Assembly (NCBI RefSeq): GCF_022436675.1
Contig: NZ_JAKUJZ010000002.1
Coordinates: forward strand, 124,001-188,000
Length of the DNA stretch: 64,000 bases
DNA from: Rheinheimera hassiensis
Lineage (GTDB): Bacteria > Pseudomonadota > Gammaproteobacteria > Enterobacterales > Alteromonadaceae
Direction of reading: 5' to 3'
Shown: piece by piece, positions 23,691-41,217 of the stretch
Position numbering within the stretch: the first letter of the stretch is position 1
How the letters are laid out: each line of letters starts with the position of its first letter
Program-made: the position numbers and the translations under genes
The notes under the pieces: model-generated
What the model saw: the letters and a program-made list of their open reading frames with translations, nothing else
Told to the model about the DNA's origin: nothing
The model's database searches: none

Positions 23691-23713
23691 AAAGCCAGCG
23701 TAAAAGCTGGCTT
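23691..23713 (+). terminator. Terminator after the CBS-domain gene
   Basis: Stem AAGCCAGC/GCTGGCTT with a six-base GTAAAA loop begins three bases after the stop. The T-run is short (TTATTT), so it is a moderate terminator, perhaps backed up by the structured repeat just downstream. Confidence 0.55.
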
Positions 23714-23733
23714 ATTTGAGAATAATCGCGCCG

Positions 23734-23818
23734 GTTTACTCACTCCAACGCGCCGTAAACCCATCCGTGGGGGCTCGATTCAGGCATCCATGCCTTCAAC
23801 GGTTGGCTTAGAGTAAAC
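23734..23818 (+). repeat. Dispersed structured intergenic repeat, copy A (85 bp)
   Basis: The element is bounded by a perfect 8-bp inverted repeat, GTTTACTC (23734-23741) and GAGTAAAC (23811-23818). Its core reads CGCCGTAAAC...GGGCTCGATT, then CAGGCATCCATGCC and TTCAACGGTTGG. A 34-base part matches copy C (41039-41072, other strand) at 31 positions, and 44 core bases match copy B1 at 31 positions. It lies between convergent genes and could end transcription from both. Its mobility and function are unknown. Confidence 0.75.
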
Positions 23819-23841
23819 CTCTGCTCGCTTGCAGGTCTTGC

Positions 23842-26004
23842 TTAGTCGGTTAAGCCAACCCCCATTTCTTTTAACAGGTTATCTGCGCCATCCAGCTGCA
23901 TTTGCCACAGCATAAAACGGTGATCTACCTGAATAGAGCGGGTGTTGTCCGGGTTGTAGTCCCAGTCTGAAATGATTGAATCCAGCGTGCCGTCAAAGGC
24001 TAAACCTACCAGTTCGGCTTTGCTGTTTAATACTGCCGAGCCTGAATTGCCGCCGGTAATATCCAGTGTAGCCAGGTAATTTACCGGTACTGAATTTAAG
24101 CTTTCTACCTTGTACGGACCATATTGCTTGGCTTTTATCGCATCCAGCTGTTTTTGCGGTGCGTTAAATTCACCTTCGCCGGTTGCTTTGGCCGTAATAC
24201 CGCGTAGCGTGGTAAATGGCGCCCAGGCGTTGCCATCTTCATTGCCGTGCGCGCGGCCTTTTACGTTACCGTAAGTTACCCGCAGCGTGCTGTTGGCGTC
24301 CGGGTAAACTGCCTGGCCTTTAGACTGCATAAAGGCAATTTTGGCACGCATATAGCTGGCGTACGCCTGCTGAATTTTACCGGCCAGCTCTTCTTCCTGC
24401 GCTTCACGTTTTAAATCGGTTTTATACAATGCTACGGCGGCTTTAACAAAAGCATCGTTGCTTTGGGCAAATTGCTGTGGCGTGCTGTCCAGCAGAGCAG
24501 TGCGCTTAGCCGGATCAGTTAAATCGCTATTGGCGTACCAGCTGTCAATCAGGCTTTTCAGTTGCTCGTTGCTGATGCCATCTTTAATGCCCATCGCTTT
24601 GTCAAAATCTGCGTTACGCTGTTTTTTTGGCAAAGCGGCGTATTTGCTCAAGTTGTGCAGGTCCAGTGCTTTTTCTACGCCAACATCCAGGTTGCGCTCC
24701 ATGCCGGCTACAAAGGCTTGGTAGCGCGGAATGTCGCGTTGCTGAAAGCCAGCTTTACGCTGAGCATCCGGTTTGGTACTTTCCTGGGCTAATCTGTACA
24801 GGGCGCGTGAAGCTGCCAGTAACCGAGGTGTGGCATTGTTTAGCAGGTAATTGGCCCGCTCTTTGGTTTGGTTTTCTTTTAACAGTTTTTCTATTGCTGT
24901 TAAGTCTTTGGCATACGCTTTTTTATTTTCGCTGCTGCTGTTAACCCAGGCGGTAAGGGCTTGATGCTCTTGCGTTTTACGTTGTAAAAAGTCGCTTTGG
25001 GCAAAGCTGTCCAGCATGCCCTGGCGGTTTTTCATATAATTATTTAACCCGGCAACACGGCCGGCGTACTTCAACTCTGCATCTTTATTGCTAGCGGTTT
25101 CGCGGGCAATAATATCCAGTGTGTCTTTAAACTGGGCAACGGTATTGGGGTAAGCCCATTCAAAGGTATCGCTGACTTCGCTTGGTAAACGGTGACGGTT
25201 AGTGCGGCCGGGGTAACCCAGCGCCATGACAAAATCACCTTCTTTTAAGCCATCTTTGGCCAGTGTTAAATGATAATCCGGCTTATAAGGCACGTTATCT
25301 ACGCTGTAATCTGCCGATTTACCCTCTGGGCTGACATAAGCACGGTAGAAACTGTAATCACCGGTGTGACGCGGCCACATCCAGTTGTCGGTGTCGCCAC
25401 CAAATTTGCCCACACCCTCAGCCGGAGCATGTACTAAACGCACATCTTTAATTTCCAACTGTTTAATCAGGTAAAACTCTAAGCTGCCGTAGTAGGCGGC
25501 TACCGTACAGCGGTGGCCTTCGTCTTTTTCGCATTCGGCGATAATAGCTTTCTGGTTGGCTTCAATAGCGTCGATACGCTTTTTGCCGCTTAGTTTAGCG
25601 GTTTTGCCATCAATCACTTTATCGGTAACGTTATCTACGGCTTTGGTAACAAAAATGCGGCTGCCCGGGGCTGCGGCAACTTCGTCGCCTGGCTTCTGGG
25701 CTAAAAAGCCGTTGGCCAGTAAGTCGTTTTCTGGTGTTGAGTTATGCGCGATGCTGCCATAAGCGCAGTGGTGGTTAGTGGCAACCAAACCATTGGGTGA
25801 CACAAAAGAGGCGGAGCAGCCGCCTAAACTAACAATAGCTGCGGCAGGGAATTCGGTGAGTTTGCTTAAGTTGGCCGGGTCCAGTTCAAGACCAGCAGCT
25901 TTTAATTCGGTGGCAATTTGCGGCAGTTGTTGTGGCATCCACATGCCTTCATCAGCCATGGCAAAACTGCTGGCCAGCGCCAGCATCAGAATGGATTTTT
26001 TCAT
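23842..26004 (-). CDS. S46 family dipeptidyl-peptidase (DPP7/DPP11 type)
   Basis: 720 residues with a signal peptide (ILMLALASSFAMA, cleavage near residue 17). The trypsin-like double barrel is split by a helical insert. The catalytic His is in ATNHHCAYG (residues 78-79), the Asp in the GDTDNWMWPRHTGDYSFYR region (near 225) and the Ser in ITGGNSGSAV (near 655). S46 enzymes are periplasmic exopeptidases that remove dipeptides from the N-terminus of peptides. They feed amino-acid use in proteolytic marine and soil bacteria. Whether it prefers hydrophobic (DPP7) or acidic (DPP11) residues cannot be decided by eye. Confidence 0.93.
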   Translation of the reverse strand: MKKSILMLALASSFAMADEGMWMPQQLPQIATELKAAGLELDPANLSKLTEFPAAAIVSLGGCSASFVSPNGLVATNHHCAYGSIAHNSTPENDLLANGFLAQKPGDEVAAAPGSRIFVTKAVDNVTDKVIDGKTAKLSGKKRIDAIEANQKAIIAECEKDEGHRCTVAAYYGSLEFYLIKQLEIKDVRLVHAPAEGVGKFGGDTDNWMWPRHTGDYSFYRAYVSPEGKSADYSVDNVPYKPDYHLTLAKDGLKEGDFVMALGYPGRTNRHRLPSEVSDTFEWAYPNTVAQFKDTLDIIARETASNKDAELKYAGRVAGLNNYMKNRQGMLDSFAQSDFLQRKTQEHQALTAWVNSSSENKKAYAKDLTAIEKLLKENQTKERANYLLNNATPRLLAASRALYRLAQESTKPDAQRKAGFQQRDIPRYQAFVAGMERNLDVGVEKALDLHNLSKYAALPKKQRNADFDKAMGIKDGISNEQLKSLIDSWYANSDLTDPAKRTALLDSTPQQFAQSNDAFVKAAVALYKTDLKREAQEEELAGKIQQAYASYMRAKIAFMQSKGQAVYPDANSTLRVTYGNVKGRAHGNEDGNAWAPFTTLRGITAKATGEGEFNAPQKQLDAIKAKQYGPYKVESLNSVPVNYLATLDITGGNSGSAVLNSKAELVGLAFDGTLDSIISDWDYNPDNTRSIQVDHRFMLWQMQLDGADNLLKEMGVGLTD

Positions 26005-26158
26005 AAGTACTCTTTTATTTTTAATTTTGACAGGAATGTTAAACGTAAGACCACAGCTATAGTCGATGCCAGCGCTAGCCTTGTCAATACTCGGCTAAAG
26101 CCACAGATGCCGCTATGCGATGGTTATCGCAGTTCAAGCGTTGGGTGATAGAAGCAGT

Positions 26159-27649
26159 TTATTTGTCGGAAAACCAACAAGGTTGATTGCGGCCCAGCCG
26201 TTTGGCCTGATACATAGCCGTGTCGGCCTGTCGCAATAGTTCATCACAATTGGTGTCACCCTGAAACAGCACCAGACCGATACTGCAGGCGCATTGATGC
26301 ATATTATGCTCAGACAGCGGGAAAGGCCGGGCCAGCTCTTTAACAATTTTAGTGGCAATGTGCTGAATATGCAGTTTGCTGCGCCCAATTTCGGTATCAA
26401 TATCGCGTAGCAGCACAATAAATTCGTCGCCGCCAAAGCGCGCCACGGTATCGGCCTGACGCACGGCATTTAATAACCGGTGTGCTACTTCTACCAGCAG
26501 GCTGTCACCTGTTCTGTGGCCGTAGATATCGTTGACCGGTTTAAAGTTATCCAGGTCGATAAACATTAAGCCACTGTATTTCTGGCCGCGCTGACTGGAT
26601 GCTATAGCTTGCAGCAAGTGCTCTTCCAGCAAACGACGATTGGCCAGACCGGTTAAGCTGTCATAAAAAGCTAACCGGCGGATTTGCGCGGCGCTAAGGC
26701 AGCGGCTAATTGCCAGCTCAGCAAGGTTGCTGTAGGTTTTGATTTTTTGCAGCAGTATCGCACAGGGCTCAGCTGGCTGATAATGGTAGATGGCAAAGGT
26801 ACCTAACACTTTGTTGTGAGCGTTTTTTATTGGTTGTGACCAGCAGGCTTTCACCCCGGCAATGGCCGCCAGTGCCTGATAAGGCTGCCAATACGGATGC
26901 GTGCTGATATCCTGCACTATTACGGTTTCACCGGTAAAAGCAGCAGTGCCGCATGAGCCGACGCCCACGCCAATAGCAACACCGTCCAGTGCGTTGTTAT
27001 ATTCATCTGGTAACGACGGTGCCGCGCCGTGGTGCAGGGTTTGGTTATCTTCGTCCAACAGTAAGATAGAACACAGCATGCCCTGATGTAGCAGCTCTAC
27101 CTGAGTAACCAGATTATGCAGAATACTTTTTAGCTCAGCGCCTTCACTGATCTGGCTTAAAATCTGGTTTTGCAGCAGTAACTCTTGTGTGCGCTGGGCT
27201 ACTTTTTGCTCAGTTTGCTGCAGGCTGTATTGGTAGCGGGCGTTTAGCAGACTGAGTTTTGTGATCTGTAACGCCAGTGGTGCCAGCACTTGCGTTATGC
27301 TGTCGGGCTGGGTTTGATCCACACTTGCTTTATTTGACCGGCGTTTGCCAACCAACAAACCGGCAATGTGTTCGCCGTCCAGCATTATCGGTGTCGCGTA
27401 ATTTTGCTGGCTGTTTTCAACAGTTATTTCGGCTGTCTGTTGTAAACCAAAGCGGGCATCTGGCCAGTCGGACGATGCCAGCACTTTGCCATATATATCA
27501 AGCAATGCAACGGGCAAGCCCATTACCTGCTGGATGTTGTTAAATACGGTGTTAAGTTCTGAAAAATCAATAGTAGCGACCAGTTTGCTGGCTGGTTCAT
27601 TATCAGATAGGTGCTGCGATTGAGCGCTGCCAGCGGATACGTCCTGCAT
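26159..27649 (-). CDS. Diguanylate cyclase with PocR-like and GAF sensor domains
   Basis: 496 residues without a membrane segment. The N-terminal region (about 25-110; FSELNTVFNNIQQVMGLPVALLDIYGKVLASSDWPDARF) resembles a PocR ligand-binding domain, which in relatives senses small hydrocarbon-like ligands. A short coiled coil (about 130-165) and a GAF domain (about 165-325; GVGVGSCGTAAFTGE, VQDISTHPYWQPY) follow. The GGDEF domain at the C-terminus has an intact ARFGGDEF and an RQAD inhibitory site five residues before it, so an active, product-inhibited cyclase is expected. It may oppose the EAL protein at 1.2 kb. It lies downstream of the his operon but is separately transcribed, as far as the 193-bp gap shows. 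Confidence 0.88.
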   Translation of the reverse strand: MQDVSAGSAQSQHLSDNEPASKLVATIDFSELNTVFNNIQQVMGLPVALLDIYGKVLASSDWPDARFGLQQTAEITVENSQQNYATPIMLDGEHIAGLLVGKRRSNKASVDQTQPDSITQVLAPLALQITKLSLLNARYQYSLQQTEQKVAQRTQELLLQNQILSQISEGAELKSILHNLVTQVELLHQGMLCSILLLDEDNQTLHHGAAPSLPDEYNNALDGVAIGVGVGSCGTAAFTGETVIVQDISTHPYWQPYQALAAIAGVKACWSQPIKNAHNKVLGTFAIYHYQPAEPCAILLQKIKTYSNLAELAISRCLSAAQIRRLAFYDSLTGLANRRLLEEHLLQAIASSQRGQKYSGLMFIDLDNFKPVNDIYGHRTGDSLLVEVAHRLLNAVRQADTVARFGGDEFIVLLRDIDTEIGRSKLHIQHIATKIVKELARPFPLSEHNMHQCACSIGLVLFQGDTNCDELLRQADTAMYQAKRLGRNQPCWFSDK

Positions 27650-27842
27650 CTGGATTTGCTTAGCCTCGGCTTACATATGCGGTGATTTCACCCTAATAAT
27701 GTTAACAGTGTAGTCAAGGGAAGGTATTGTCGCCATGTAAACCTTAACCTTATCACCAGTTAAACCAGCGCCGGGTATAGGTTCAGTACCTTACGCTGGG
27801 TGTACAGGTTAACGCTAAACCTGCCGTTAAAATGTCGCGTTG

Positions 27843-28472
27843 TTATTTATGCCGTTGTTGTAGTACGGTAATTACGTCGTTCAGTTCCAGTTTTTGGCTG
27901 CGCAGCAGTACCAGAAGGTGGAAAATTAAATCAGCCGCCTCGTTAGCCAGCTCTTCTTTATCACCAGCCATGGCAGCCAGAGCAGATTCGACACCTTCTT
28001 CACCGACTTTTTGCGCGATGCGCTTTACGCCTTTGGCAAATAAGCTGGCAGTATAGCTGCTGCTTGGGTCTGCACCTTCGCGCGCTTTAATCACTTGTTC
28101 AAGGTCATATAAAAAAGCCAGTTGTGGGCTGTTGGCGCTGTTATTGTGCCAGCAGGTTTCGGTGCCAACATGGCAGGTGGGGCCTTGCGGCAGTGCCAGC
28201 ACTAAAATGCTGTCGGCATCGCAGTCGCTGTCGATGCTAACCAGCTTTAAGGTATTGCCAGAGCTTTCACCTTTGGTCCACAGCCGTTGTTTGCTGCGGC
28301 TGTAAAAGGTCACATTGCCGCTTTGCAGTGTGTGCTCAAGCGCCCCCGGGTTCATATAGCCCTGCATCAGCACTTTGCCGGAGATGGCATGCTGCACTAT
28401 TGCGGGTAATAACTTTGCCGGTAATAACTGGTTATCGGGCCAGCTTAACGCTTTGATTTGTTCTTCGTTCAT
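27843..28472 (-). CDS. hisI: HisIE: bifunctional phosphoribosyl-AMP cyclohydrolase / phosphoribosyl-ATP pyrophosphatase
   Basis: 209 residues carrying steps 2 and 3 of histidine synthesis. The cyclohydrolase domain (about 1-115) has [30 protein letters not shown] and the zinc-site [12 protein letters not shown] and [13 protein letters not shown]. The pyrophosphatase domain (about 117-209) has [25 protein letters not shown] and [14 protein letters not shown]. It is the last his gene, but unlike in most relatives it is separated from hisF by 310 bp holding two copies of a dispersed repeat. Expression from the his promoter therefore has to pass that structure or use a local start. Confidence 0.96.
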
Positions 28473-28529
28473 AAGTAACCTTTATTCATTTTATTGTACC
28501 GGCTAGTAGGCTCTGAGGTTTAGCTGCAC

Positions 28530-28593
28530 ACAGAGACGCCGTAAATACCTCCCTGTAGGCTCCTCTGTAGCATCCTTGCCACAGACGCTCTGT
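28530..28593 (+). repeat. Dispersed structured intergenic repeat, copy B1 (about 64 bp)
   Basis: Bounded by ACAGAG (28530-28535) and CTCTGT (28588-28593). The core ACGCCGTAAATAC...TAGGCTC...GCATCCTTGCC aligns to copy A at 31 of 44 positions. It lacks the CAACGGTT end of the full element, so it may be a shorter or degenerate form. Confidence 0.6.
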
Positions 28594-28660
28594 TTAGCAG
28601 CTAATCCTCGTCGCTTGATACACTTGCTCAACGGCTGGCACAAGCAAAGCAAGCGCGGAT

Positions 28661-28747
28661 GTACTTTTTTCAGCGACCGTTGGAGGCCATGGATGGCCGG
28701 AATCGAGCTCCATGGACGGTTTATGGCGTGTCGCAGAAAAAATGTAC
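28661..28747 (-). repeat. Dispersed structured intergenic repeat, copy B2 (87 bp, inverted relative to B1)
   Basis: Outer arms 28661-28677 (GTACTTTTTTCAGCGAC) and 28730-28747 (GTCGCAGAAAAAATGTAC) pair with one bulge. On the minus strand the core reads CGCCATAAACCGTCCATG, GAGCTCGATTCC and GGCCATCCATGGCC, then CCAACGGTCGC, clearly the same core as copies A and C. The arms have a different sequence but are still complementary. Confidence 0.72.
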
Positions 28748-28782
28748 GCAGCGATTGCGCCTTCGAAGCTCCGTTTCCGTTC

Positions 28783-29556
28783 TTACGGCCGGATACTAAT
28801 ACCATCAGCAATCAGTTTGGCTTTTAACGCCGCAATTTCAATTATACCTTTATGAAACACACTGGCCGCCAGGGCGCCGTCAACGTCGGCCTTTTCAAAT
28901 ACGTCTGTAAAATGCTGCATAGTACCGGCGCCACCACTGGCAATTAATGGCACAGTACAAATATCGCGGATGCTTCTTAACTGGGCGATATCATACCCCT
29001 GGCGAACACCGTCCTGATTCATGCAGTTAAGCACTATCTCGCCAGCACCACGGCTTAATACCTCGGCTACCCAATCACGGCTAAGCCATTGGGTTTTCTG
29101 CGTGCGGCTTTCGTCACCGGTAAACTGATACACCTGATACTGGCCCGAGACGACATCAAAAAAGCTGTCGATACCTACCACCACACATTGCTGGCCAAAG
29201 TTGTGATTCAGCTCGTTAATCAGCTCTGGCCTTGCCAGAGCAGGGCTATTAACTGAAATTTTATCGGCGCCCATTTCTAAAATCTTACCTGCATCAGCTA
29301 TCGTTTTAATACCACCGGCGACACAAAACGGAATGTCGATCACTTCTGCTATACGCCGTACCCAGCTTTTATCTACCACGCGGCCATCGCTCGACGCAGT
29401 GATATCGTAAAATACCAACTCGTCAGCGCCGGCCTCGGCATAGCGCTGTGCCAAAGGTACTATATCGCCAATAATTTCGTGGTTGCGAAACTGTACACCT
29501 TTAACCACTTTGCCATCGCGTACATCCAGGCAGGGAATTAACCGTTTTGCCAGCAT
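28783..29556 (-). CDS. hisF: HisF, imidazole glycerol phosphate synthase cyclase subunit
   Basis: 257 residues, a (beta/alpha)8 barrel. The start [26 protein letters not shown] is the standard HisF start, and the catalytic aspartates lie in CLDVRDG and near the GGAGTMQHF segment. With HisH it turns PRFAR and ammonia into IGP and AICAR. It overlaps hisA by 19 bp as in enterobacteria. It ends SIRP, and the operon is interrupted right after its stop by repeat elements. Confidence 0.97.
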
Positions 29557-30275
29557 GCTATGGCCTCCTGCAAAGTAAACTTACCTTCTAGCAACGAGCG
29601 GCCCAAAATAACCCCTGCTACGCCGCTGCCAATTAAGGCGCGGATATCATCGAGCGAGCCAATGCCGCCGGAGGCCTGCCACTGAATTTGCGGGTAGTGA
29701 GCAACCAGCTCTTTATAAAGCTGCACGTTAGAGCCACTTAAGGTACCGTCTTTGCTGATATCAGTGCATAGCACATGCTGAGCGCCAGCGGTGATATAGC
29801 CGTCCAGCACCTGTTCCAGCGTAATATCAGACTGTTCTATCCAACCATGTGACGGCAGGGTTTTCTCACCTTTTTCATTGATGGCAACATCCAGCGCCAG
29901 CACAATTTGCTCGCCGCCGTATTTGCGCACCCAGCTTTGCACCAGCTCGCTTTGGCGAATGGCCAGGCTGCCAATAACCACACGGCCTGCGCCGGCGTCG
30001 AGTAAGTCAATTAAGTCCTGCTCGCTGCGCACTCCGCCGCCTACCTGAATATGCAGCGGAGCAGCGGTCATCAGTTCAGTTAATAATTTCAGCTGTCGTT
30101 TAGTTGCATCTTTAGCGCCGGATAAATCAACAATATGCAGCCAATCGGCACCGGCCTGAGCGTATTGGTTACGCAGATTAATAGCTCTGAAAGCATATTC
30201 AGTTGTATTGTCATAGCGGCCCTGATAAAGCCTAACCACATTACCGTCAATAAGATCGATTGCCGGAATAATCAT
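29538..30275 (-). CDS. hisA: HisA, ProFAR isomerase
   Basis: 245 residues from the ATG at 30275, the same length as E. coli HisA. This start overlaps the hisH stop as ATGA and has GGAG eight bases upstream; a GTG three codons earlier is less likely. [17 protein letters not shown] is the barrel start with the catalytic Asp, and a second Asp lies in [14 protein letters not shown]. It catalyses the Amadori isomerisation of ProFAR to PRFAR, step 4 of the pathway. Confidence 0.97.
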
Positions 30276-30865
30276 AAACGCCACTCCAGAAAGTTCTGTA
30301 ATAAACGCGCGCCGGTTTTGCCCGAGCGTTCTGGGTGAAACTGGGCACCGGCAACATTATCTTTGCCAATCACTGCGGCAAAATCGCTGCCATAATGGCA
30401 TAGCGCAAGTGAATACTGGCTGGACGCAACAGCAAAGCTGTGAACAAAATACATATAGTCTGTTTCGTTAAAACCACGCATCAGAGCATGATTGCTGATA
30501 TTTTTCAGCGTATTCCAGCCCATATGTGGCAAGCGCAAACCCGCGCTTTGCATCGGCAATACTTCACCGGGGATCAGGTTTAAACAAGGCACATCGCCTT
30601 CCATGCTGTGGCCGGTTAGCAGTTGCATACCCAAACAAATACCCAGTAGCGGTTGTTGCAGGCTTTGTAAGGTGTCAATCAGTTCAGCCTGTTGCAGCTT
30701 GGCCATGGCGTTGTGCGCGGTGCCGACACCCGGCAGCAGCACTTTGTCTGCTGCTTTAATCCGCTTTGCCTCACGGCTTATCGTGGCATCTACGCCCAGG
30801 CGTTTAAAAGCAAAATACACCGAGCTGATATTGGCGCAGCCGGTATCAACAATCACCAGTTGCAT
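30272..30865 (-). CDS. hisH: HisH, imidazole glycerol phosphate synthase glutaminase subunit
   Basis: 197-residue class I glutamine amidotransferase. The nucleophile is in [11 protein letters not shown], with the His/Glu of the triad in [10 protein letters not shown]. It supplies ammonia to HisF through the barrel channel. Its ATG shares one base with the hisB stop (TAATG) and its own stop overlaps the hisA start, so the block is tightly coupled. Confidence 0.97.
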
Positions 30866-33047: not shown

Positions 33048-33050
33048 GGT

Positions 33051-34388: not shown

Positions 34389-34390
34389 AG

Positions 34391-35299
34391 CTACTCCATC
34401 ATCTTTTCAATTGGCAGTACTAAAATCGAGCTGGCGCCCAGCGCCTTTAGTTGCTCCATGGTTTCCCAAAACAGCGTTTCGCTGCTAACCACATGAATGG
34501 CCACCATATCGTTGTTACCAGCCAGCGGCAGCATTGTCGGGTTTTCGGCGCCTGGCAGCAGCGCAATCACCTCGTCTAAGCGCGCGCGCGGCGCATGCAG
34601 CATAATGTATTTGCTTTCGTTGGCCTGCATTACACCGTTGATGCGCGGCATCAGCTTGTTAATCAGCTTAAGCTGGCGCTCATCGGTAAGGTTTTTGCGC
34701 TGAATAAGCACCGCTTTACTGCGGTAAATTACATCCACTTCTTTTAAGCCGTTGGCCTCCAGCGTGGCACCGGTGGACACCAGATCGCAAATTGCATCGG
34801 CTAAACCGGCGCGTGGCGCCACTTCTACTGAGCCTTTTAAATTAACAATGCGGGCATTTACGCCTTGCTCTTTCAAATAGCGGGCCAGCAAGCGCGGATA
34901 AGTAGTTGCAATGGTTTTGCCCTCCAGTGAGGCTGCACCGCCATAATTTTCTTCCTGCGGCACGGCAATCGATAAGCGGCAGCCGCCAAAATCGAGCCGC
35001 TTTAAGACGGTGTAATCAAAGCTGTCGTTATCCAGCTTGCGCTGCAATGACTCTTCTTCCAGTACGTTTTCGCCAACAATGCCCAGATCACAGACGCCGT
35101 CCATCACCAGGCCCGGGATGTCATCATCACGTACGCGCAGGATATCAATATCCATATTCTCGACATGGGCGATAAGGCGTTGCTCGCGCAGGTTAATTTT
35201 CAGGCCACAGCTGGTAAACAGTGCCTGGGAGTCGACCGATAAGCGGCCGGATTTCTGCATGGCGATACGTAAGCGTTTAGATTCTGTTGCCGGACTCAT
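34391..35299 (-). CDS. hisG: HisG, ATP phosphoribosyltransferase (long form)
   Basis: 302 residues, the long, HisZ-independent form (299 in E. coli), so it carries its own C-terminal regulatory domain (about 225-300) for histidine feedback. [42 protein letters not shown] and the PRPP loop [18 protein letters not shown] are present. It catalyses the first committed step. It is the first structural gene after the attenuator, and GGAG lies in the ACGGAGACC just upstream of the start. Confidence 0.97.
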
Positions 35300-35329
35300 A
35301 ATGGTCTCCGTGACGATAATAAAATAAAC

Positions 35330-35382
35330 AAAGTAATAAACAAAAACCCCGGCCTGGGCGCGGGGTTTTTGTTTATTACTTT
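35330..35382 (-). terminator. his operon attenuator terminator
   Basis: A perfect 22-bp inverted repeat (35330-35351 and 35361-35382) with a nine-base GC-rich loop lies 31 bp before the hisG start. On the minus strand it ends CCCCG...CGGGG followed by TTTTTG, the standard intrinsic-terminator form. Its position between the leader peptide and hisG makes it the attenuator. Confidence 0.85.
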
Positions 35383-35401
35383 ACCACCGGAGCGCCAGAC
35401 C
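35351..35401 (-). promoter_or_regulatory. Candidate antiterminator pairing of the his leader
   Basis: On the minus strand GGTCTGGCGC (35401-35392) can pair with GCGCCCAGGCC (35361-35351) as ten base pairs with one bulged C and one G-U. The second segment is the loop and top pair of the terminator stem. The competition is therefore with the stem's top, and how exclusive it is needs a folding calculation. Confidence 0.5.
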
Positions 35402-35403
35402 AT

Positions 35404-35427
35404 AGCCCTCCGACAAAGCGGACGGCT
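35404..35427 (-). promoter_or_regulatory. Candidate pause hairpin of the his leader
   Basis: AGCCGTCCG and CGGAGGGCT (minus strand, 35427-35419 and 35412-35404) pair at eight of nine positions around a six-base loop. The stem begins within the leader stop codon, the usual place for the 1:2 pause structure of amino-acid attenuators. Confidence 0.6.
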
Positions 35428-35467
35428 AGTACCTATGATGATGGCGCAGTACAGTAATAATATTCAT
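35426..35467 (-). CDS. hisL: his operon leader peptide (13 aa, three consecutive His codons)
   Basis: An ATG-led frame encodes M-N-I-I-T-V-L-R-H-H-H-R-Y and stops with TAG just before a pause hairpin, an antiterminator segment and a 22-bp terminator stem upstream of hisG. Three tandem CAT codons, followed by Arg and Tyr, are the sensor: scarce His-tRNA stalls the ribosome there and should favour the antiterminator, opening the operon. E. coli HisL has seven His codons, so this is a short version. The ribosome site is weak (no clear AGG), and the start could be elsewhere in the same frame. Confidence 0.82.
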   Translation of the reverse strand: MNIITVLRHHHRY

Positions 35468-35488
35468 ATTCAGGGTTTTGCTGGTTAA

Positions 35489-35518
35489 GTTGCTATACAA
35501 GTTACCCTTATGCCGCAG
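35489..35518 (-). promoter_or_regulatory. Candidate his promoter
   Basis: On the minus strand TTGCTG is followed after about 16 bases by TGTATAGC, about 25-50 bases upstream of the leader ATG. Both boxes are poor matches, and other -35/-10 pairs nearby (TTGCAC...TAACTT) are possible. Confidence 0.3.
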
Positions 35519-35749
35519 CAAGTGCAAGCCTGTTTGCTTTTGAATGCATTACAGGTTTATTTTTAAGTGTTTGAAATTATATCGCTTTATTTATTTTCGT
35601 GCCAGGGCGGCAATAAATTATTTTCTTTGAAAATGCAGATATGGGAATTTAAAGTTCAAAAAACGGTCAACTTGTATAGTCAATGCAGTGTTGGGCTTAA
35701 GTTTATCGTCTGGCTGCCGATAACAGTAAATTGCTTTGAGGAGAAGCTG

Positions 35750-36001
35750 ATGGACGCTTTTATGCCTTTTATCCAGCGCGTACCCGGTACGCCGGTCGAG
35801 CCTGATCCCAAACAGGTCGTGCCGGTGTTTAAAGACGCGCGCTTAAGCCCGATAAAACCGCATGAGCAGAAATACCTGATCCTCAGCAGGCCCACACATA
35901 AACGCGATCGTCGCCAGCAAGACTACCCGGCAGCACCTTACACCACACCGGAAGAAGATTTGCATGTTGATAAAGACGGCCATCTGGATATTTTTGTCTG
36001 A
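35750..36001 (+). CDS. Small unknown protein (83 aa), proline-rich
   Basis: The ATG at 35750 follows a strong GAGGAGAAG ribosome site; the open frame extends 61 codons further upstream but without protein-like composition. The product starts MDAFMPFIQRVPGTPVEPDP, is rich in Pro, Lys, Arg and Asp, has no signal or membrane helix, and ends DGHLDIFV. I do not recognise a family. It is divergent from the his operon and 91 bp upstream of yoaA on the same strand. The hydrophobic-Asp-aromatic C-terminus resembles that of the small protein at 38.9 kb (GVDLYA). Confidence 0.7.
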   Translation: MDAFMPFIQRVPGTPVEPDPKQVVPVFKDARLSPIKPHEQKYLILSRPTHKRDRRQQDYPAAPYTTPEEDLHVDKDGHLDIFV

Positions 36002-36092
36002 ATTTGCCCGCTGTTAAGGCATAATAGCCGCCTTATTTTGCTGCCGGTTGTATCAGTGTTGCCTACTTTCTTTTATTACAAACTGAGTTGTT

Positions 36093-38027
36093 ATGCGTAA
36101 GCAGGTTGCCAGCGCCTTTGCGCCGGGCGGTGCTTTAGCTGCGCATATTGCCGGTTTTAACGCCCGCGATGCTCAACTGCAAATGGCGCAGGCGGTAGCC
36201 GATGTGATCGAAACACCGGGCGCGCTGGTGGTAGAAGCCGGGACTGGTACCGGTAAAACCTATGCCTATTTAGTACCGGCGCTGCTAAGCGGGAAAAAAG
36301 TAGTGCTATCTACCGGTACAAAGAATCTGCAGGAACAGCTTTATTTCCGCGATTTGCCCAAGGTGGTTAAAGCCCTGGCCAGCCCGTTGCAGTTGGCGCT
36401 ACTTAAAGGTCGTAGTAATTACCTGTGTTTGTTTCGCTTAGAGCAGCACTACAATCATGTGCCGATGCAGGACGACCAACTGATCCAGGATCTAAGCCTG
36501 ATCAAAAAATGGTCAGCCGAAACCCAAAGCGGCGATATCGGTGAGTTAAGCTACATCAGTGAAGACTCCAAAGCGCTGCCCTATGTCACCAGCACCACCG
36601 ACAACTGCCTGGGTAAAGACTGTCCGGTGTATGAAGACTGTCATTTATTAAAGGCGCGCAAAAAAGCTCAGGCGGCCGATTTGGTGGTAGTAAATCATCA
36701 TTTATTTTTTGCCGACCTGGCATTGAAAGATACCGGCTTTGGCGAGCTACTGCCGCAAATGGATGTGATTATTTTTGACGAAGCACACCAATTGCCGGAT
36801 ATCGCCAGTGACTATTTTGGCGAGAATGTCTCCAGTCGCTTATTGTTGGACTTGTGCCGTGATATTGATGTTGCCTGCAAAACCGAACTGCGCGACCACC
36901 CGCAGCTGGCGAAAACTGCCGATAAAGTGGCGCAGTTGATAAAAGACTGGCGCCTGCAGTTTGGCAATGACGCTACCAAAGGCAATTGGCGTGAAGCCTA
37001 TCAAAAACCTGAGATGCAAACTGCGCTGAACCGCGTTAGCGAAGCCATAGATATGTTGTATCTGGTGATGAAAAGCAGCCTGGGTCGCAGCGACTTGGTC
37101 GACAACGCCTTTGAGCGCTTAGCGCTGTGTAAAGCACGCTTATTAAAACTGACCGATATGCAGCAAAACGGCGTTAGCCTGTGGTTTGAAACCACCCGGT
37201 TGCACGTTAGCTTGCATTTAACGCCGCTGAGTATTGCCGATAAATTTCGTGACATTGTCGCTGCCGATAGCCGCAGTTGGGTGTTTACTTCGGCTACCTT
37301 ATCAGTGAATAACGGCTTTAGTCATTATACTGCGCAGATGGGGCTGAATAACGCCAAAACCCTGCTGCTGGAAAGCCCGTTTAACTACGCTGAGCAGGCA
37401 TTGCTGTGTGTGCCGCGCTATATGAGCGAGCCGCATGAGCAGGGCATGGCACGGCAGTTACTGCAAATTGCCGTTCGGCTGATTGAGGCCAATAACGGCC
37501 GCTGCTTCTTTTTATTTACCAGCCACCGTATGCTGCAACTGGTAGCGAAACAATTGCCGGATCTGGTACGGCAGCCGGTGTTAGTGCAGGGCAGCAGCGG
37601 CAAGCGTTTGCTGCTGGAGCAGTTTGTTAAACTGGACAACGCTGTGCTGCTCGGCACCGGTAGTTTTTGGGAAGGCGTAGACGTGCGTGGCGATACCTTA
37701 AGCTGCGTAATTATTGATAAACTACCCTTTGCCTCACCGGACGAGCCGCTGCTGCAAGCGCGTAGCGAAGACTGTACTATGCGTGGTTTGGATCCCTTTG
37801 CGCAAGTGCAACTGCCACAGGCAGTGATCACCTTAAAGCAGGGCGTAGGCCGCTTAATTCGTGATGTCACCGATCGCGGCGTGATGGTAATTTGCGATAA
37901 TCGTTTAGTGACAAAGCCGTACGGCGAAGTATTTTTAACCAGCTTACCGCCGATGCGCCGCACCCGCTCGCTGGACGAAGCAGTAAGCTTTTTACAACAG
38001 ATTAAACAGGACAACGAACGTGAATAA
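36093..38027 (+). CDS. yoaA: YoaA, XPD/DinG-type ATP-dependent DNA helicase
   Basis: 644 residues. Walker A is VEAGTGTGKTYAYL (near residue 48), and the DEAH box is IIFDEAHQLPD (near 226). The iron-sulfur cysteines lie in SNYLCLFRL, DNCLGKDCPVYEDC. Helicase motifs VFTSATLS, LLGTGSFWEGVDVRG and GVGRLIRDVTDRGVMVICDNR complete the superfamily-2 core. YoaA unwinds 5'-to-3' and in E. coli works with the HolC subunit in repair of stalled replication. It overlaps tsaB by eight bases, as in many gammaproteobacteria. Confidence 0.94.
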   Translation: MRKQVASAFAPGGALAAHIAGFNARDAQLQMAQAVADVIETPGALVVEAGTGTGKTYAYLVPALLSGKKVVLSTGTKNLQEQLYFRDLPKVVKALASPLQLALLKGRSNYLCLFRLEQHYNHVPMQDDQLIQDLSLIKKWSAETQSGDIGELSYISEDSKALPYVTSTTDNCLGKDCPVYEDCHLLKARKKAQAADLVVVNHHLFFADLALKDTGFGELLPQMDVIIFDEAHQLPDIASDYFGENVSSRLLLDLCRDIDVACKTELRDHPQLAKTADKVAQLIKDWRLQFGNDATKGNWREAYQKPEMQTALNRVSEAIDMLYLVMKSSLGRSDLVDNAFERLALCKARLLKLTDMQQNGVSLWFETTRLHVSLHLTPLSIADKFRDIVAADSRSWVFTSATLSVNNGFSHYTAQMGLNNAKTLLLESPFNYAEQALLCVPRYMSEPHEQGMARQLLQIAVRLIEANNGRCFFLFTSHRMLQLVAKQLPDLVRQPVLVQGSSGKRLLLEQFVKLDNAVLLGTGSFWEGVDVRGDTLSCVIIDKLPFASPDEPLLQARSEDCTMRGLDPFAQVQLPQAVITLKQGVGRLIRDVTDRGVMVICDNRLVTKPYGEVFLTSLPPMRRTRSLDEAVSFLQQIKQDNERE

Positions 38028-38742
38028 AAGCGCCGTGGCCGGCATAAAGTTACTTGCCTTAGACACCTCTACCGAAGCCTGCTCAGTAGCCTTGCAGGTT
38101 GGCACGGATATTTTAACCCTGGATGAAGTCTGCCCGCAGCAGCACAGTAAACGCGTGCTACCGATGGTACAGCAGTTGCTAAGTAAGGCTGGTATAAGCC
38201 TTAACCAACTCGACGGCATTGTATTTGGCCGTGGCCCGGGTAGCTTTACCGGAGTGCGTATTGGTGTGGGGGTAACCCAGGGCCTGGCCTTTGGTGCCGA
38301 TATACCGGTATATGGCGTTTCCACTCTGGCGGCAATGGCGCAGGCCGCGCACCGGCTATATGCTGCTAGCCAGGTGGTGGCGGCAATAGATGCCCGTATG
38401 GCCGAAGTCTATATCGGTAGTTTCAGCATACAACAGGGCCTGATGCTGGCACTCAGCGGCGAAGTAGCCATTAAGCCACAGGATATCACCGGCTTTGATA
38501 TCAGCGGTGAAGTCTATGCTGTCGGCACCGGTTGGCAAACCTATGCTGACGCCTTACTGCAAAAACAGCCTGCTGTTATCGCTAATGATATTTTATATCC
38601 GTCGGCGCAGGATATGCTCACTTTGGCGCTACCGGCACTTGATGCCGGGCAGTTTATTGCCGCAGAGCTGGCAGAGCCGGTGTATGTGCGTGATGATGTT
38701 ACCTGGCAAAAACTGCCCGGAAGGGATACCCGTCCTACTTGA
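38020..38742 (+). CDS. tsaB: TsaB, tRNA threonylcarbamoyladenosine biosynthesis protein
   Basis: 240 residues of the ASKHA-like TsaB fold: LLALDTSTEACSVALQVG, the QQHSKRVLPMVQQLL helix, FGRGPGSFTGVRIGVGVTQGLA and VVAAIDARMAEVY. TsaB bridges TsaD and TsaE in making the t6A37 modification of ANN-decoding tRNAs; it lacks the metal-binding His pair of TsaD. It lies downstream of and overlaps yoaA. Its stop codon runs directly into a nested-hairpin element that may act as its 3' end. Confidence 0.96.
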   Translation: MNKSAVAGIKLLALDTSTEACSVALQVGTDILTLDEVCPQQHSKRVLPMVQQLLSKAGISLNQLDGIVFGRGPGSFTGVRIGVGVTQGLAFGADIPVYGVSTLAAMAQAAHRLYAASQVVAAIDARMAEVYIGSFSIQQGLMLALSGEVAIKPQDITGFDISGEVYAVGTGWQTYADALLQKQPAVIANDILYPSAQDMLTLALPALDAGQFIAAELAEPVYVRDDVTWQKLPGRDTRPT

Positions 38743-38852
38743 AACTGCAGCGGTGTTGGCCGCAATCGTGAACCTCAATCACATAGATAACTATGCTCAT
38801 GGGGATTCACTCACTTGCCGCCTGGCTGCAGCTCCAACTAGTTAGGGTATAA
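38743..38852 (+). repeat. Nested-hairpin intergenic element after tsaB
   Basis: About 110 bases. The central hairpin is 38768-38810: GTGAA...CATAG, ATAA loop, CTATG...TTCAC. Outside it are approximate pairs GGCCGCAA (38758-38765) with TTGCCGCC (38815-38822) and ACTGCAG with GCTGCAG. It ends GTTAGGGTATA. I recall very similar sequences scattered between genes in Shewanella, Alteromonas and relatives, but I could not search here. It could be a terminator, an mRNA 3'-stabiliser or a non-autonomous element. Confidence 0.6.
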
Positions 38853-38914
38853 AATAACTTGGTTATTAATGCTTTCTGGTTATAATTAAGCCAGTTTGCT
38901 TAAGTGATGATGCT

Positions 38915-39217
38915 ATGACGTTAAACGTTAATCAGAGCCTGAATGCCTCCACCAACATTAGCAGCGTATTCGCTGGTAATGAGCCTCGCCGTGCGCCGCC
39001 GCGCAGTGAAACGGTTACCGAGGCGCCGCAAGGCCGTGGTGTACGTGCCAGCAATGAGGTGATAAGCCAACTGGACGATGAGCGTCGCCGGCAGGCAAAC
39101 TTCAGCTCTGCCAACGATCGTCGCAGCCAACAAGCCATAGACGCCTACCAAAGCCAGGCCAATGAGCAACGCCGCAGCGAAGTTCAATCGATGCTCGGAG
39201 TCGATCTTTACGCCTGA
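38915..39217 (+). CDS. Small unknown protein (100 aa), Arg/Gln-rich
   Basis: MTLNVNQSLNASTNISSVFAG leads into a proline/arginine stretch and a probably helical, Gln/Arg/Ser-rich part (SQLDDERRRQANFSSANDRR, QAIDAYQSQANEQRRSEVQS), ending MLGVDLYA. No signal peptide, cysteine or catalytic motif is visible. I do not recognise the family, though proteins with the closing GVDLYA occur, as I recall, near tsaB in related genera. It lies between the tsaB element and an SDR gene. The frame has normal codon use and no competing start. Confidence 0.7.
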   Translation: MTLNVNQSLNASTNISSVFAGNEPRRAPPRSETVTEAPQGRGVRASNEVISQLDDERRRQANFSSANDRRSQQAIDAYQSQANEQRRSEVQSMLGVDLYA

Positions 39218-39278
39218 GTAAAACCAATCATCGTTTCTGGCCGTAGTCTAAACAAAGATACTTTGTATAGAGACGGTT

Positions 39279-40016
39279 ATGACTTCTACTTGTTTAATCA
39301 CCGGTGCCAGCTCTGGTATTGGCCGTGAATTAGCACAGCATTATGCAGCCAATGGCTGGACCGTTTACGCTGTGGCCCGTTCGGCAGATAAGCTTGAACA
39401 GCTTAGCAAAAACGCCGGTATTCGCGCATTACCGCTGGACTTGACTGACAATACCGCTTTGCAGCGCTCGGCACAGCAATTAGCTGATGACGGCGTAGTG
39501 CTGGATTTATTGCTACTTAATGCCGGTACCTGTGAATATGTTGATGCTAATGATTTGGACTTAGCGGCGTTTGAACGCACCTTTGCCATTAACTTTCACG
39601 CTGTGGTGGCCGCTACCAAATACTTTATGCCGCTGCTAAAAGCGTCTTTAACACCGCAACTGGCAATTGTCAGTTCGATGGCGCACTTTTTCCCTTTCAC
39701 CCGCAGCGAAGCCTATGGCGCCAGCAAAGCCGCAGTCAGTTATTTTGTCGATAGTTTACGGGTAGATTTAGCCGATAGCGGTATCCATATCAGTTTAATT
39801 GAACCGGGTTTTGTTGATACGCCTCTAACGCAGAAGAACGATTTCTCTATGCCGTTTTTAGTGCCGGTAAGCCAGGCTGCCAACCGCATTTATACCGGTT
39901 TAGCCAAGGGTAACAGCCGGATCCGTTTTCCGCGCCGGCTGAGCGTGTTGTTAAAGCTGTTGTCATTATTGCCGTATAACTTGCGTAACAGTGTGGCCAA
40001 AAGGATGAAGCAATAA
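39279..40016 (+). CDS. Short-chain dehydrogenase/reductase, first gene of a DUF2878/chalcone-isomerase-like cluster
   Basis: 245 residues. It has the TGASSGIG nucleotide motif, LDLTDN, LLLNAGTCEY (NAG), SSMAHFFPFTRSEAYGASKAAV with the catalytic Ser, Tyr and Lys, and EPGFVDTPLT. A basic, hydrophobic tail (LSVLLKLLSLLPYNLRNSVAKRMKQ) may touch the membrane. Its stop overlaps the start of the DUF2878 gene, and a chalcone-isomerase-like gene follows. In Vibrio and Shewanella related SDRs sit with Cfa-type methyltransferases, DUF2878, DUF3833 and ChrR/sigma-factor genes; only these three are here. The substrate, perhaps a lipid, is inferred from the neighbourhood. Confidence 0.88.
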   Translation: MTSTCLITGASSGIGRELAQHYAANGWTVYAVARSADKLEQLSKNAGIRALPLDLTDNTALQRSAQQLADDGVVLDLLLLNAGTCEYVDANDLDLAAFERTFAINFHAVVAATKYFMPLLKASLTPQLAIVSSMAHFFPFTRSEAYGASKAAVSYFVDSLRVDLADSGIHISLIEPGFVDTPLTQKNDFSMPFLVPVSQAANRIYTGLAKGNSRIRFPRRLSVLLKLLSLLPYNLRNSVAKRMKQ

Positions 40017-40516
40017 TGGCGGGTACTAAAGGTTTTAACTGGCGCGCCCTGGTGGGTTTTGAGTTGTGTTGGTTTGCATTAGTGTATTTTCAGCAACAGG
40101 CTGTATTGCCGGTGCTGGCTTACTTATTTTATGGTGTATGGCAGGTGGATAAAGCGGGGCGTATTGCAGTACTGCTGATATTGCTGGCAGGTCTTGGCAT
40201 AGACACGCTGTTGCTGCGCCTGAACGTTATACAGTTTAGTGGTGACGCGTTGTTGCCGTTATGGTTTGTGCTGCTGTGGGCAGTTTTTGCTCTGGCTGCA
40301 GTGGAGTTTATGTCCAAAGTGCTGACTAAACCCTGGCTGGCAGCCATATTGGGTGCCAGTGGCGGGCCTTTATCTTACTGGGGCGGGGCGGCGCTTAGCG
40401 GTGGCGCCTTGCAGTTTCCGTTGCAGCTTTACTCTGCAGTCGTCTTAATTGTGGTCTGGGCGCTTATTGCCATAGCGCTTGGGCAAAGCAGGAGGTGGTA
40501 TGGTAAAGCTGTATAG
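40016..40516 (+). CDS. DUF2878 family integral membrane protein
   Basis: 166 residues with about five hydrophobic helices. The start WRALVGFELCWFALVYFQQQA and the closing GALQFPLQLYSAVVLIVVWALIAIALGQSRRW match DUF2878, a family of unknown function found beside SDR and chalcone-isomerase-like genes. The central PLSYWGGAAL segment is also typical. It is tightly coupled to both neighbours: it starts on the SDR stop codon and its 3' end overlaps the next gene by 17 bp. Confidence 0.82.
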   Translation: MAGTKGFNWRALVGFELCWFALVYFQQQAVLPVLAYLFYGVWQVDKAGRIAVLLILLAGLGIDTLLLRLNVIQFSGDALLPLWFVLLWAVFALAAVEFMSKVLTKPWLAAILGASGGPLSYWGGAALSGGALQFPLQLYSAVVLIVVWALIAIALGQSRRWYGKAV

Positions 40517-41012
40517 TTTGTTATTGCTGGCGGGCCTGGCCGGTAGCGTTAGTTTTAATGCGGCGGCTGTGCCTGAGTTGACAACAGTTGGCGAGGGCTC
40601 ATACCGCTACCTGTTTTGGCAGTTATACGATGCCCGTTTAGCCAGTGAAGATGGTAAGTTTGAGAATTATCAGCAAAGTACACCTTTATTGCTGGAGCTG
40701 ACCTATAAACGCGATATTACCAGGCAGCAGTTTATTGATGCCACTGTAGATGAATGGCAAAAATTGGGGCACAGCAGTAAAGCACAACAGCAGCAATGGG
40801 CGCAGCAGTTGCAAAGCCTGTGGCAGGATGTGCAGGAAGGCGATACGCTGGCGGCGCTGTTGCAAGATAATGGCGGTGTTAGGTTTTATTTAAATGGCAC
40901 TGAAACCGGCGTATTGGACGACAGTGCTTTTGGCACGGCTTTTTTTGATATCTGGCTGCACCCTGATACCAGCGCACCTAAATTGCGCCGCCAGTTAATT
41001 GCAATAAATTGA
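40500..41012 (+). CDS. Exported chalcone-isomerase-like protein
   Basis: 170 residues from the ATG at 40500, which has AGGAGG five bases upstream; a longer frame begins inside the previous gene without a ribosome site. A signal peptide (LYSLLLLAGLAGSVSFNAAA) is followed by a chalcone-isomerase-like fold: GEGSYRYLFWQLYDARLASEDG, LLLELTYKRDITRQQFIDAT, LYLNGTETG-type strand (VRFYLNGTETGVLDDSAFGTAFFDIWLH). The bacterial members bind fatty acids or other lipids and lack flavonoid-pathway context. With the SDR and DUF2878 genes it probably forms an envelope lipid-processing unit. A long repeat follows. Confidence 0.83.
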   Translation: MVKLYSLLLLAGLAGSVSFNAAAVPELTTVGEGSYRYLFWQLYDARLASEDGKFENYQQSTPLLLELTYKRDITRQQFIDATVDEWQKLGHSSKAQQQQWAQQLQSLWQDVQEGDTLAALLQDNGGVRFYLNGTETGVLDDSAFGTAFFDIWLHPDTSAPKLRRQLIAIN

Positions 41013-41029
41013 GCTTTCATCTCAGTTAG

Positions 41030-41194
41030 AACCAATTTGCTCTAAGTTAACCGTTGAAGGCATGGATGCCTGACAAATTCTCTTGGAGCGAATTTGGACA
41101 GCTTGGCTGGCCCGAAGTGTGAACTCCCAGGATGGAGTTCACAATCGAGCCTACATGGACGTATTCACGGCGTGTTAGCGTGAACAAACTGGTT
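41030..41194 (-). repeat. Dispersed structured intergenic repeat, copy C (165 bp, expanded)
   Basis: Outer arms AACCAATTTG (41030-41039) and CAAACTGGTT (41185-41194) pair at nine of ten positions. Read on the minus strand, the core has CGCCGTGAATACGTCC, GTAGGCTCGATT and then an insertion not in copy A, holding two perfect hairpins: 41119-41127 with 41134-41142, and 41074-41080 with 41090-41096. The other core half, CAGGCATCCATGCC to ACTTAGAGC, follows (31 of 34 identical to copy A). It lies between convergent genes. Confidence 0.75.
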
Positions 41195-41217
41195 CGTCGA
41201 TCCTTAATCCGCTTTTG

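Follow-up and report, generated by a model that had tools for sequence, protein, structure and literature searches.

We know of no settled role for repeats of the YPAL type. The YPAL/RU-2 repeats of Yersinia were reportedly described by De Gregorio et al. in 2006, in a study that is said to have found target site duplications at YPAL.

YPAL is described as a mobile repeat in an excerpt of Delihas 2007 (PMC2759123), and a conserved stem-loop was predicted for it earlier (RNAz P 1.00; PMC2267715, excerpt). Judged from its sequence, the element family analysed here is not new, its core being that of YPAL/RU-2 and of the Rfam small RNA Ysr224. What is new is the conserved feature, a pair of GGA loops that sit on stems unrelated in sequence, with about 23 nt between them. 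The earlier note on this DNA, according to which no function had been assigned to such motifs, missed both the GGA loops on the reverse strand and the identity of the core. When compared by eye with the core, the RU-2 sequence in the excerpt of Table 1b of PMC2759123 shows the same two GGA hairpins as here, with loops that read AAGGAT and ATGGAT, as well as the P2 bulge, TTTAC, flanked by the arms GTAAAG and CTTTAC. Both elements are dispersed and intergenic; the Rheinheimera element differs in its arms and in a 70-bp module that brings two additional hairpins with GGA.

Ysr224 (RF02770), among the 20 most prevalent sRNA annotations of bacterial genomes (PMC9029176, excerpt), is modelled in Rfam as an sRNA gene on the strand opposite to that with the GGA loops (GGA strand). 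It scores above cut-off over the core in all seven Yersinia loci from our core scan. Among ten Rheinheimera loci tested, two matched, at 26.1 and 23.3 bits (copies B1 and C below) against a gathering cut-off of 70, and for the other eight no match was listed; the Rheinheimera copies are thus not members of RF02770 by this score.

Several GGA-loop hairpins and paired sites are also found in CsrA-sequestering sRNAs of the CsrB/RsmZ class. Our element resembles these in having several hairpins with ANGGA-type loops at a spacing that a dimer could bridge, and differs in being a dispersed repeat with dozens of copies, 2-4 candidate sites in each and no dedicated promoter found. TwoAYGGAY (RF01731), a proposed CsrA-binding RNA, has two hairpins with AYGGAY loops, and an external stem is mentioned for it (PMC4333381, excerpt). 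Despite the likeness in GGA loops, the best score of this model in the host genome was 29.8 against a cut-off of 43, and the ten copy loci tested gave no match at E<=10, so the element was not assigned to it. We found no paper that joins YPAL with CsrA. CsrA goes unmentioned in the available portions of the YPAL/RU-2 descriptions (PMC2759123, PMC2267715), and two papers on CsrA and repeats (PMC4679880, PMC4383904) do not, in the portions available, concern a YPAL-type repeat.

Copies in the window, the host genome and other genomes

Four copies of the element were located in the window, i.e. the whole 64,000-nucleotide stretch of Rheinheimera hassiensis DNA analysed. Strands refer to the GGA strand, and all four copies are recognised by covariance models R1 and R2.

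23733..23819, minus: copy A, short form; loops (5' to 3' on the minus strand) ATGGAT at 23786-23791 and ACGGAT at 23763-23768
23692..23713, minus: terminator-like hairpin adjoining copy A, a flanking feature from the consensus scan only
28515..28609, minus: copy B1, short form; arms of a family of its own; loops AAGGAT at 28572-28577 and AGGGAG at 28549-28554
28661..28747, plus: copy B2, short form; arms GTACTTTTTTC/GAAAAAATGTAC, a third family; loops ATGGAT at 28689-28694 and ATGGAC at 28712-28717
41029..41195, plus: copy C, long form; core loops ATGGAT at 41062-41067 and ATGGAC at 41155-41160
41074..41143, plus: extra module of copy C, 70 bp, with two further hairpins
41085-41087: GGA of the first module hairpin, within a larger loop
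41119-41142: second module hairpin, loop CAGGAT at 41128-41133

The earlier note had proposed exactly these four copies with a shared core, at about the same positions. R1 matches cover 23728-23824 (-), 28514-28610 (-), 28655-28751 (+) and 41029-41195 (+), with E-values from 8e-24 to 5e-11. R2, which was built from 55 copies, with no source locus titled Rheinheimera (the host genus), recovers the same copies with E-values from 3e-15 to 4e-8. Neither model has another match in the window at E<=1, and Rfam gave no match there at gathering score. Copy B1 is flanked by his genes on both sides and has its GGA strand in sense orientation to them; in B2 the GGA strand is antisense to the his genes. 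The second core stem of B2 is one base short, and the minimum-energy fold of this copy is not the family fold. The extra block with two hairpins, also pointed out before, is missing from orthologous short copies in two related genomes (G034, G028).

The host genome contains about 50 copies. A 26-base core pattern with at most two mismatches matched 50 times there, compared to one match of the reversed-pattern control, so the family cannot be ascribed to chance; R1 gave 56 matches at E<=0.001. The selected, covarying and modular structure envisaged in the earlier note is supported, together with many more copies. The family is spread across Gammaproteobacteria, beyond the host genus. YPAL-like traits (palindromic fold, dispersed intergenic position, location near gene ends) are evident in the host genome and weaker in named loci. 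In the former, 48 of 50 copies lie in non-divergent intervals as judged by a rough ORF caller; in the latter, 14 of 71 intervals are divergent by a simple ORF rule, so that a preference for gene ends does not hold in general. Within tandem gene intervals, host copies display no orientation bias (GGA strand sense in 14, antisense in 15), and named loci (n=37) have 13 sense and 24 antisense copies; genes in this count were called by the simple ORF rule, with 9 of 83 named copies left out at locus edges and 3 more lacking a second gene. A simple model of the element as a sense 3'-UTR structure is therefore unsupported, the GGA strand having no preferred orientation to genes.

Sites A and C vary among Rheinheimera genomes in presence or absence of the element, in its orientation and in its arms. 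Copy C had no match in the phage collection and copy A none in the plasmid collection.

REPs with their RAYTs are similar in being small palindromic repeats, often located 3' of genes, and a REP-associated tyrosine transposase had been put forward as something to look for. In CGTC-tagged REPs the stem measures 8-9 bp and the loop 4-5 nt, according to the abstract and excerpts of PMC3733652; this anatomy differs from that of a three-way junction with lineage-variable arms, and such identity was rejected. Some match to Y1_Tnp occurs in 27 of 31 genomes of the genus, with none in G007, G027, G034 and G035 and only a partial one in G000. The host genome contains only a partial match (positions 5-72 of 121, in a 106-aa frame). 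A cognate Y1_Tnp is absent from copy-rich genomes such as G034, which has 33 pattern matches, and a RAYT parent is not supported. As to a MITE, whose parent was sought as Y1_Tnp only, arms differ between lineages, yet one consensus is common to most host copies.

Arms, loops and strand preference

Arms pair within copies and covary, as had been claimed. Among the 42 host copies that have the internal loop, Watson-Crick pairs occupy 377 of 420 outer-arm positions; shuffling the right arms between copies lowers this to 263.5 +- 7.7. In the eight host copies without this loop the outer arms pair at 44 of 80 positions (33.0 +- 2.9 shuffled; largest shuffle 46) and the inner arms at 46 of 48 (25.2 +- 3.8). 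Two alignments were used further, A1 with 31 of the 50 host copies (short forms) and A2 with 55 of the 83 named copies, from other groups. Both sides have changed at 29 of 35 pairs in the 31 host copies (21.6 shuffled) and at 23 of 28 in the 55 others (21.1 shuffled); covariation scores are 0.58 and 0.73, respectively, against 0.19 and 0.18. Arm sequence is not conserved between lineages (80 of 116 loci compared). The previous description of the arms as non-homologous is right for B1 and B2 with respect to the other copies; it does not apply to copies A (GGTTTACTC) and C (AACCAGTTTGTTC), whose arms are diverged variants of the consensus GAACCGGTTTGCCC common to most host copies.

Both core hairpins of the GGA strand carry GGA in the loop, and the spacing of the two GGAs is 23-24 nt in 83 of the 86 copies of A1 and A2. 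All 86 aligned copies have an ANGGAN loop in P2; its TCC, and for A2 also more of the loop, was part of the search patterns. With P2 stem and loop left blank in the search, 100 of the first 101 of 322 matches in the genus (seven genomes) have GGA at positions 3-5 of the loop. The same holds for 72 of 76 listed matches in 15 genomes of the class outside the host genome (76 of 153 such matches; 14 host rows dropped); two of the four exceptions (G065, G251) lack a stem and look like chance matches, and were kept in the count. In the matches counted in these searches, every GGA loop of P2 has A at position 1, and positions 2 and 6 are free.

P3 was absent from the pattern that collected the loci tested for it. 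After removal of copies with a long or cut middle part, 71 of 83 (short forms) were left; 69 of these have GGA in the apical loop of P3, carried by 45 distinct stems. The two exceptions, one resembling a hairpin-finder fault (L132) and one with a disrupted right half (L154), were kept in the count. A held-out set of 36 of the 116 core-scan loci comprises 40 copies, of which 33 were used for loops and 24 for wobbles; GGA was found in 32 of these 33. Among the 86 aligned copies the P3 loop is ANGGAN in 61, five-base NGGAN in 20 and otherwise in 5.

Wobble pairs are distributed unequally between the strands. In 61 copies outside Rheinheimera, 68 wobbles are allowed on the GGA strand and 16 on the other; per copy, 33 prefer the GGA strand and 4 the other, with 24 ties. 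(Thirteen Rheinheimera-like loci and copies with arm score <20 were dropped, and 61 of 79 copies with enough flank were kept.) This set also held 46 isolated mismatches of other kinds. Held-out loci gave 28 wobbles against 5 (12 copies against 1, 11 ties). Host copies display a smaller excess, 52 against 26, carried by few positions, some of which point the opposite way. The GGA strand also folds better in 45 of 50 host copies and 56 of 61 others; about half of the energy difference remains with perfect arms and so stems from the core rather than from selection on the arms. The earlier note left the choice between a DNA cruciform and an RNA stem; the unequal wobbles speak for a structure formed by one strand, RNA being the simplest case, rather than for a symmetric cruciform.

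Candidate CsrA sites and alternative readings

RsmE/CsrA proteins bind hairpins with ANGGAN loops, contacting A and GGA and tolerating any N, and one dimer bridges two sites 10-63 nt apart, with an optimum above 18 (PMC7652899, excerpt). The GGA spacing of about 23 nt falls within this published range and is thus bridgeable by one dimer. CsrA of the host is intact (66 aa) and matches the solved CsrA/RsmE chains 2bti and 2jpp. On these sequence grounds we lean towards regarding the elements as RNA modules that present pairs of CsrA-type sites, i.e. candidates for CsrA binding, and a long-known, unexplained class of bacterial repeats may represent scattered CsrA binding sites.

On the GGA strand, a junction is closed by the long lineage-specific stem and bears two short hairpins, or four in the long form. 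Every one of them has GGA in its loop; the loop of P2 always, and that of P3 mostly, is of the ANGGAN type recognised by CsrA/RsmA dimers. A copy transcribed in the GGA direction, as would happen at 3' ends of genes or inside operons (B1 before hisIE), would yield RNA binding one CsrA dimer across two hairpins, and the bound CsrA would change stability or translation of that transcript. The outer stem would keep the sites folded and accessible in any host transcript, and the copies in sum would serve as a dispersed CsrA sink. A broader proposal, which we regard as tentative and rather doubtful, is that one family of mobile or recombining elements spreads self-folding CsrA dimer sites throughout Gammaproteobacteria, so that Csr regulation would be rewired by gain, loss, inversion and module change and pooled copies would buffer free CsrA. 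Should the loops prove to be CsrA sites, a large body of repeats so far without explanation would join the Csr network; were CsrA not involved, the constant distance between two GGA loops on stems of free sequence would still point to some partner reading them.

Several observations count against CsrA. In P3, 25 of 86 loops depart from ANGGAN, and 20 of the 25 have the five-base form NGGAN. Of 53 genomes that bear the element, 49 have csrA, as do 186 of the 221 others (p=0.19; 0.09 among genomes at least 90% complete), a difference in the fitting direction that is not significant. No csrA exceeded the cut-off in G234, a draft genome 98% complete that yields 9 element matches. The P2 GGA is predicted to be moderately accessible, its mean probability of being unpaired amounting to 0.66 and 0.77; in 22 of 31 and 43 of 55 copies, respectively, this probability exceeds 0.5 for both GGAs. 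The lack of gene-orientation preference, the opposite strand of Ysr224 and the failure to find a promoter-like site near copies A or C are counted likewise, as are the smaller wobble excess of the host copies and the part of the energy difference that remains with perfect arms.

Other readings have to be weighed against the same data. A selfish miniature element, whose stem-loop is read in DNA or ssDNA by a transposase or recombinase acting in trans, with loops as DNA recognition points and no function of the RNA, would agree with the variable occupancy, orientation and arms at sites A and C and with the mobility ascribed to YPAL, and a one-strand DNA intermediate could produce strand asymmetry too. 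We hold it to be unlikely, for arms vary between lineages, unlike terminal repeats read by a transposase, and GGA is fixed while the stems around the loops are free. Moreover, Y1_Tnp, the sole transposase type searched for, is missing from G007, G034 and G035 with their 44 (R1), 33 and 11 (pattern) copies. Target duplication, reportedly present at YPAL, left no signal in flanks of 42 copies (mean common word 3.48, shuffled 3.57), the element edges being set arbitrarily by us. An improbable alternative is a stabiliser of mRNA 3' ends, or a decay or termination module, in which the long stem protects the transcript and the loops serve a factor other than CsrA; non-divergent placement in the host genome, long covarying stems and the terminator-like hairpin next to copy A speak for it. 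Divergent intervals among named loci do not, and a stabilising stem needs no GGA loops in two hairpins at fixed spacing.

The UCC strand, on which Ysr224 is annotated, could itself be the active RNA and would then act as an sRNA by pairing its UCC loops with the Shine-Dalgarno GGA of mRNAs. Ysr224 does match on this strand over the core in the Yersinia loci, several of its copies are transcribed with differing profiles in Y. ruckeri (PMC12112432, excerpt), and the GGA strand is antisense in most tandem named loci; wobble pairs and folding energy favour the GGA strand, and we judge this reading highly unlikely. Complementarity of arms that are long, nearly perfect and unrelated between lineages might also be maintained in the DNA itself, if template switching corrects imperfect palindromes, and covariation would then be no sign of selection. 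This we take to be extremely improbable: such correction should be strand-symmetric, without a wobble excess on one strand, and it leaves the invariant loops unexplained.

Copies and their paired arms

The four copies lie where the earlier note had placed them. Model R1, built from 31 short-form copies of the host genome (set A1), and model R2, for which 55 copies from other groups were used (set A2), each recover exactly these copies and nothing else in the 64-kb window (E<=1):

Copy A, 23734-23818, ends about 20 bases beyond the stop codon of an S46 peptidase gene
Copies B1 (28530-28593) and B2 (28661-28747) are oppositely oriented in the interval that separates a His_biosynth gene from hisIE
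Copy C, 41030-41194, the long form, starts 16 bases beyond a Chalcone_3 gene; a convergent alkaline phosphatase gene comes next

The window also encodes an SMC_N/AAA_23 protein of 1137 aa (55213-58626) in which CAG/CAA repeats code for long glutamine-rich tracts. Copies are abundant in the host genome: 50 pattern matches were found against one for the control, and R1 gives 56.

On the GGA strand, where both core hairpins (P3 and P2) carry GGA in the loop, the element begins with outer arm, small internal loop UAA/GU (present in 42 of 50 host copies), inner arm, CG and P3. The joint UCGAGCC follows in most copies, then P2 with bulge UUYAC, GGC overlapping a CG, one bulged base and the closing arm. 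Usual P2 stems are CCC/GGG, TAC/GTA, TAT/ATA, TCC/GGA, ACC/GGT and GAC/GTC; P3 stems vary widely among copies.

The proposal that dissimilar arms pair within each copy is borne out. In the 42 host copies with the internal loop, 377 of 420 outer-arm positions are paired, compared with 263.5 +- 7.7 after shuffling; the remaining eight give 44 of 80 (33.0 +- 2.9 shuffled). Covariation agrees with the earlier note as well, with both sides changed at 29 of 35 pairs in A1 (score 0.583; shuffled 0.185; slid <=0.136) and at 23 of 28 in A2 (equalled in 20 of 500 shuffles; score 0.727; shuffled 0.184; slid <=0.157). Such tests are inflated by related rows and by deriving the structure from the sequences tested, but the A2 copies represent many genera and differ in their arms. 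At host locus L032, around 1501 and 5004 (G000:C51:295638, 299141), a subfamily with CGTCGT..GACTC has, in the basal stem of P2, a compensated change from C-G to U-A and lies close to a long-form copy of opposite orientation.

GGA loops, occurrence and relatives

GGA is invariant in both loops of all 31 A1 copies. To avoid circularity, P2 loop and stem were left blank in the search pattern. In the genus, GGA occupies loop positions 3-5 in 100 of the 101 matches counted (of 322), all 101 having A at position 1 and variable positions 2 and 6; in the class sample it is found in 72 of 76 counted of 153 matches (15 genomes, host excluded). P3 was not part of the pattern used for the one-genome-per-species scan, and its apical loop carries GGA in 69 of 71 short-form copies from the first 80 loci, on 45 different stems, and in 32 of 33 from the 36 held-out loci. 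P2 is an ANGGAN hexaloop in all 86 aligned copies. P3 takes this form in 19 of 31 host copies and 42 of 55 others. In 12 host copies and 8 others it has a five-base NGGAN loop, and in 5 of the others, but no host copy, some different form. The two core GGAs are 23 or 24 nt apart in 83 of 86 copies, and the 70-bp module of copy C contains two extra GGA hairpins.

R1 matches occur in 13 of 13 Rheinheimera genomes (11 to 56 each); of eight genomes from the rest of the order, two have matches (21 and 18). With an exact pattern, stricter than R1, 23 of the 31 genomes of the genus match. When the class was sampled evenly, R2 under stricter filters matched 53 of 274 genomes. The one-genome-per-species scan gave at least 116 stretches with the element, the matches listed including Yersinia, Sodalis, Stenotrophomonas, Xanthomonas, Lysobacter, Shewanella, Marinobacter, Saccharospirillum, methanotrophs, Nitrococcus and others. 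One full element (L134) lies on a contig labelled Desulfobulbaceae, which would reflect either contamination or a transfer beyond Gammaproteobacteria.

Members of the family in Yersinia are YPAL/RU-2 (Rfam Ysr224); the element is therefore related to a repeat already described, and PMC2267715 reports a predicted conserved stem-loop structure for that repeat. Literature listings and excerpts contained no link between YPAL/RU-2 and CsrA. Two sub-threshold host matches to TwoAYGGAY (RF01731), at G000:C11:435824-435971 (27.8 bits) and C11:424537-424595 (22.9 bits), are found near element copies L042 and L041, at distances of about 5 and 75 bp.

Strand asymmetry and possible CsrA binding

According to the review PMC7652899, the RsmE-bound hexaloop is ANGGAN with contacts on A and GGA, additional loop bases can reduce affinity, and one CsrA dimer bridges sites 10-63 nt apart. 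The host CsrA is intact, its best match among solved structures being the CsrA homologue 2bti. On balance we lean slightly towards the elements being RNA modules that present paired predicted CsrA-type sites.

In paired stems, A.C on one strand is G.U on the other. Wobbles favour the GGA strand in host copies (52 versus 26, few positions supplying most of both counts), in other groups (68 versus 16; by copy 33 versus 4, 24 ties) and in held-out loci (28 versus 5; by copy 12 versus 1, 11 ties). Folding energy agrees, being better on the GGA strand in 45 of 50 host copies and 56 of 61 others. Artificial perfect arms reduce the mean difference in host copies from -6.05 to -3.21 kcal/mol, thus about half of it is a property of the core. 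Transcription-coupled mutation could imitate the wobble asymmetry, but it would require GGA-sense orientation, and between tandem genes no such preference is seen, either in the host (14 sense, 15 antisense) or at loci from the one-genome-per-species scan (13 and 24). Such an outcome is easier to reconcile with a sink that any read-through or antisense transcription would feed than with control of the upstream gene. Host copies clearly prefer gene ends (2 of 50 intervals divergent), but those at the scan loci do not clearly do so (14 of 71). Ysr224 is modelled on the strand opposite to the GGA strand; this, the orientation and gene-end results and the distribution of csrA are the main doubts about CsrA binding. 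Presence of csrA did not differ significantly between element-bearing (49 of 53) and other genomes (186 of 221; p 0.19); the four element-bearing genomes with no csrA over cut-off are drafts, one of them 98% complete.

Gain and loss of copies

Site C is empty or nearly so in several relatives, including genomes G002, G036, G035, G026 and G029, and holds a short form in G034 and G028. G009 and G024 (long form) and G032 (short form) have an element of opposite orientation with other flanks. Copy A is common to seven genomes. In seven more, site A holds an oppositely oriented copy whose arms differ; this copy is long in G002 and G021 and cut in G024. No element is present there in at least five. 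In nine of the loci compared, one flank was not found. These comparisons indicate that copies come and go, and that the module is gained or lost with the rest of the element undisturbed. Target duplication was looked for beside 42 host copies, with arbitrarily chosen element edges, and not found, and the search for a REP-associated transposase, advised by the earlier note, revealed no necessary Y1_Tnp transposase. At site C of G010 and G004 (L243, L250), the core is deleted and the outer arms are kept as a hairpin, with the left inner arm alone remaining in its loop.
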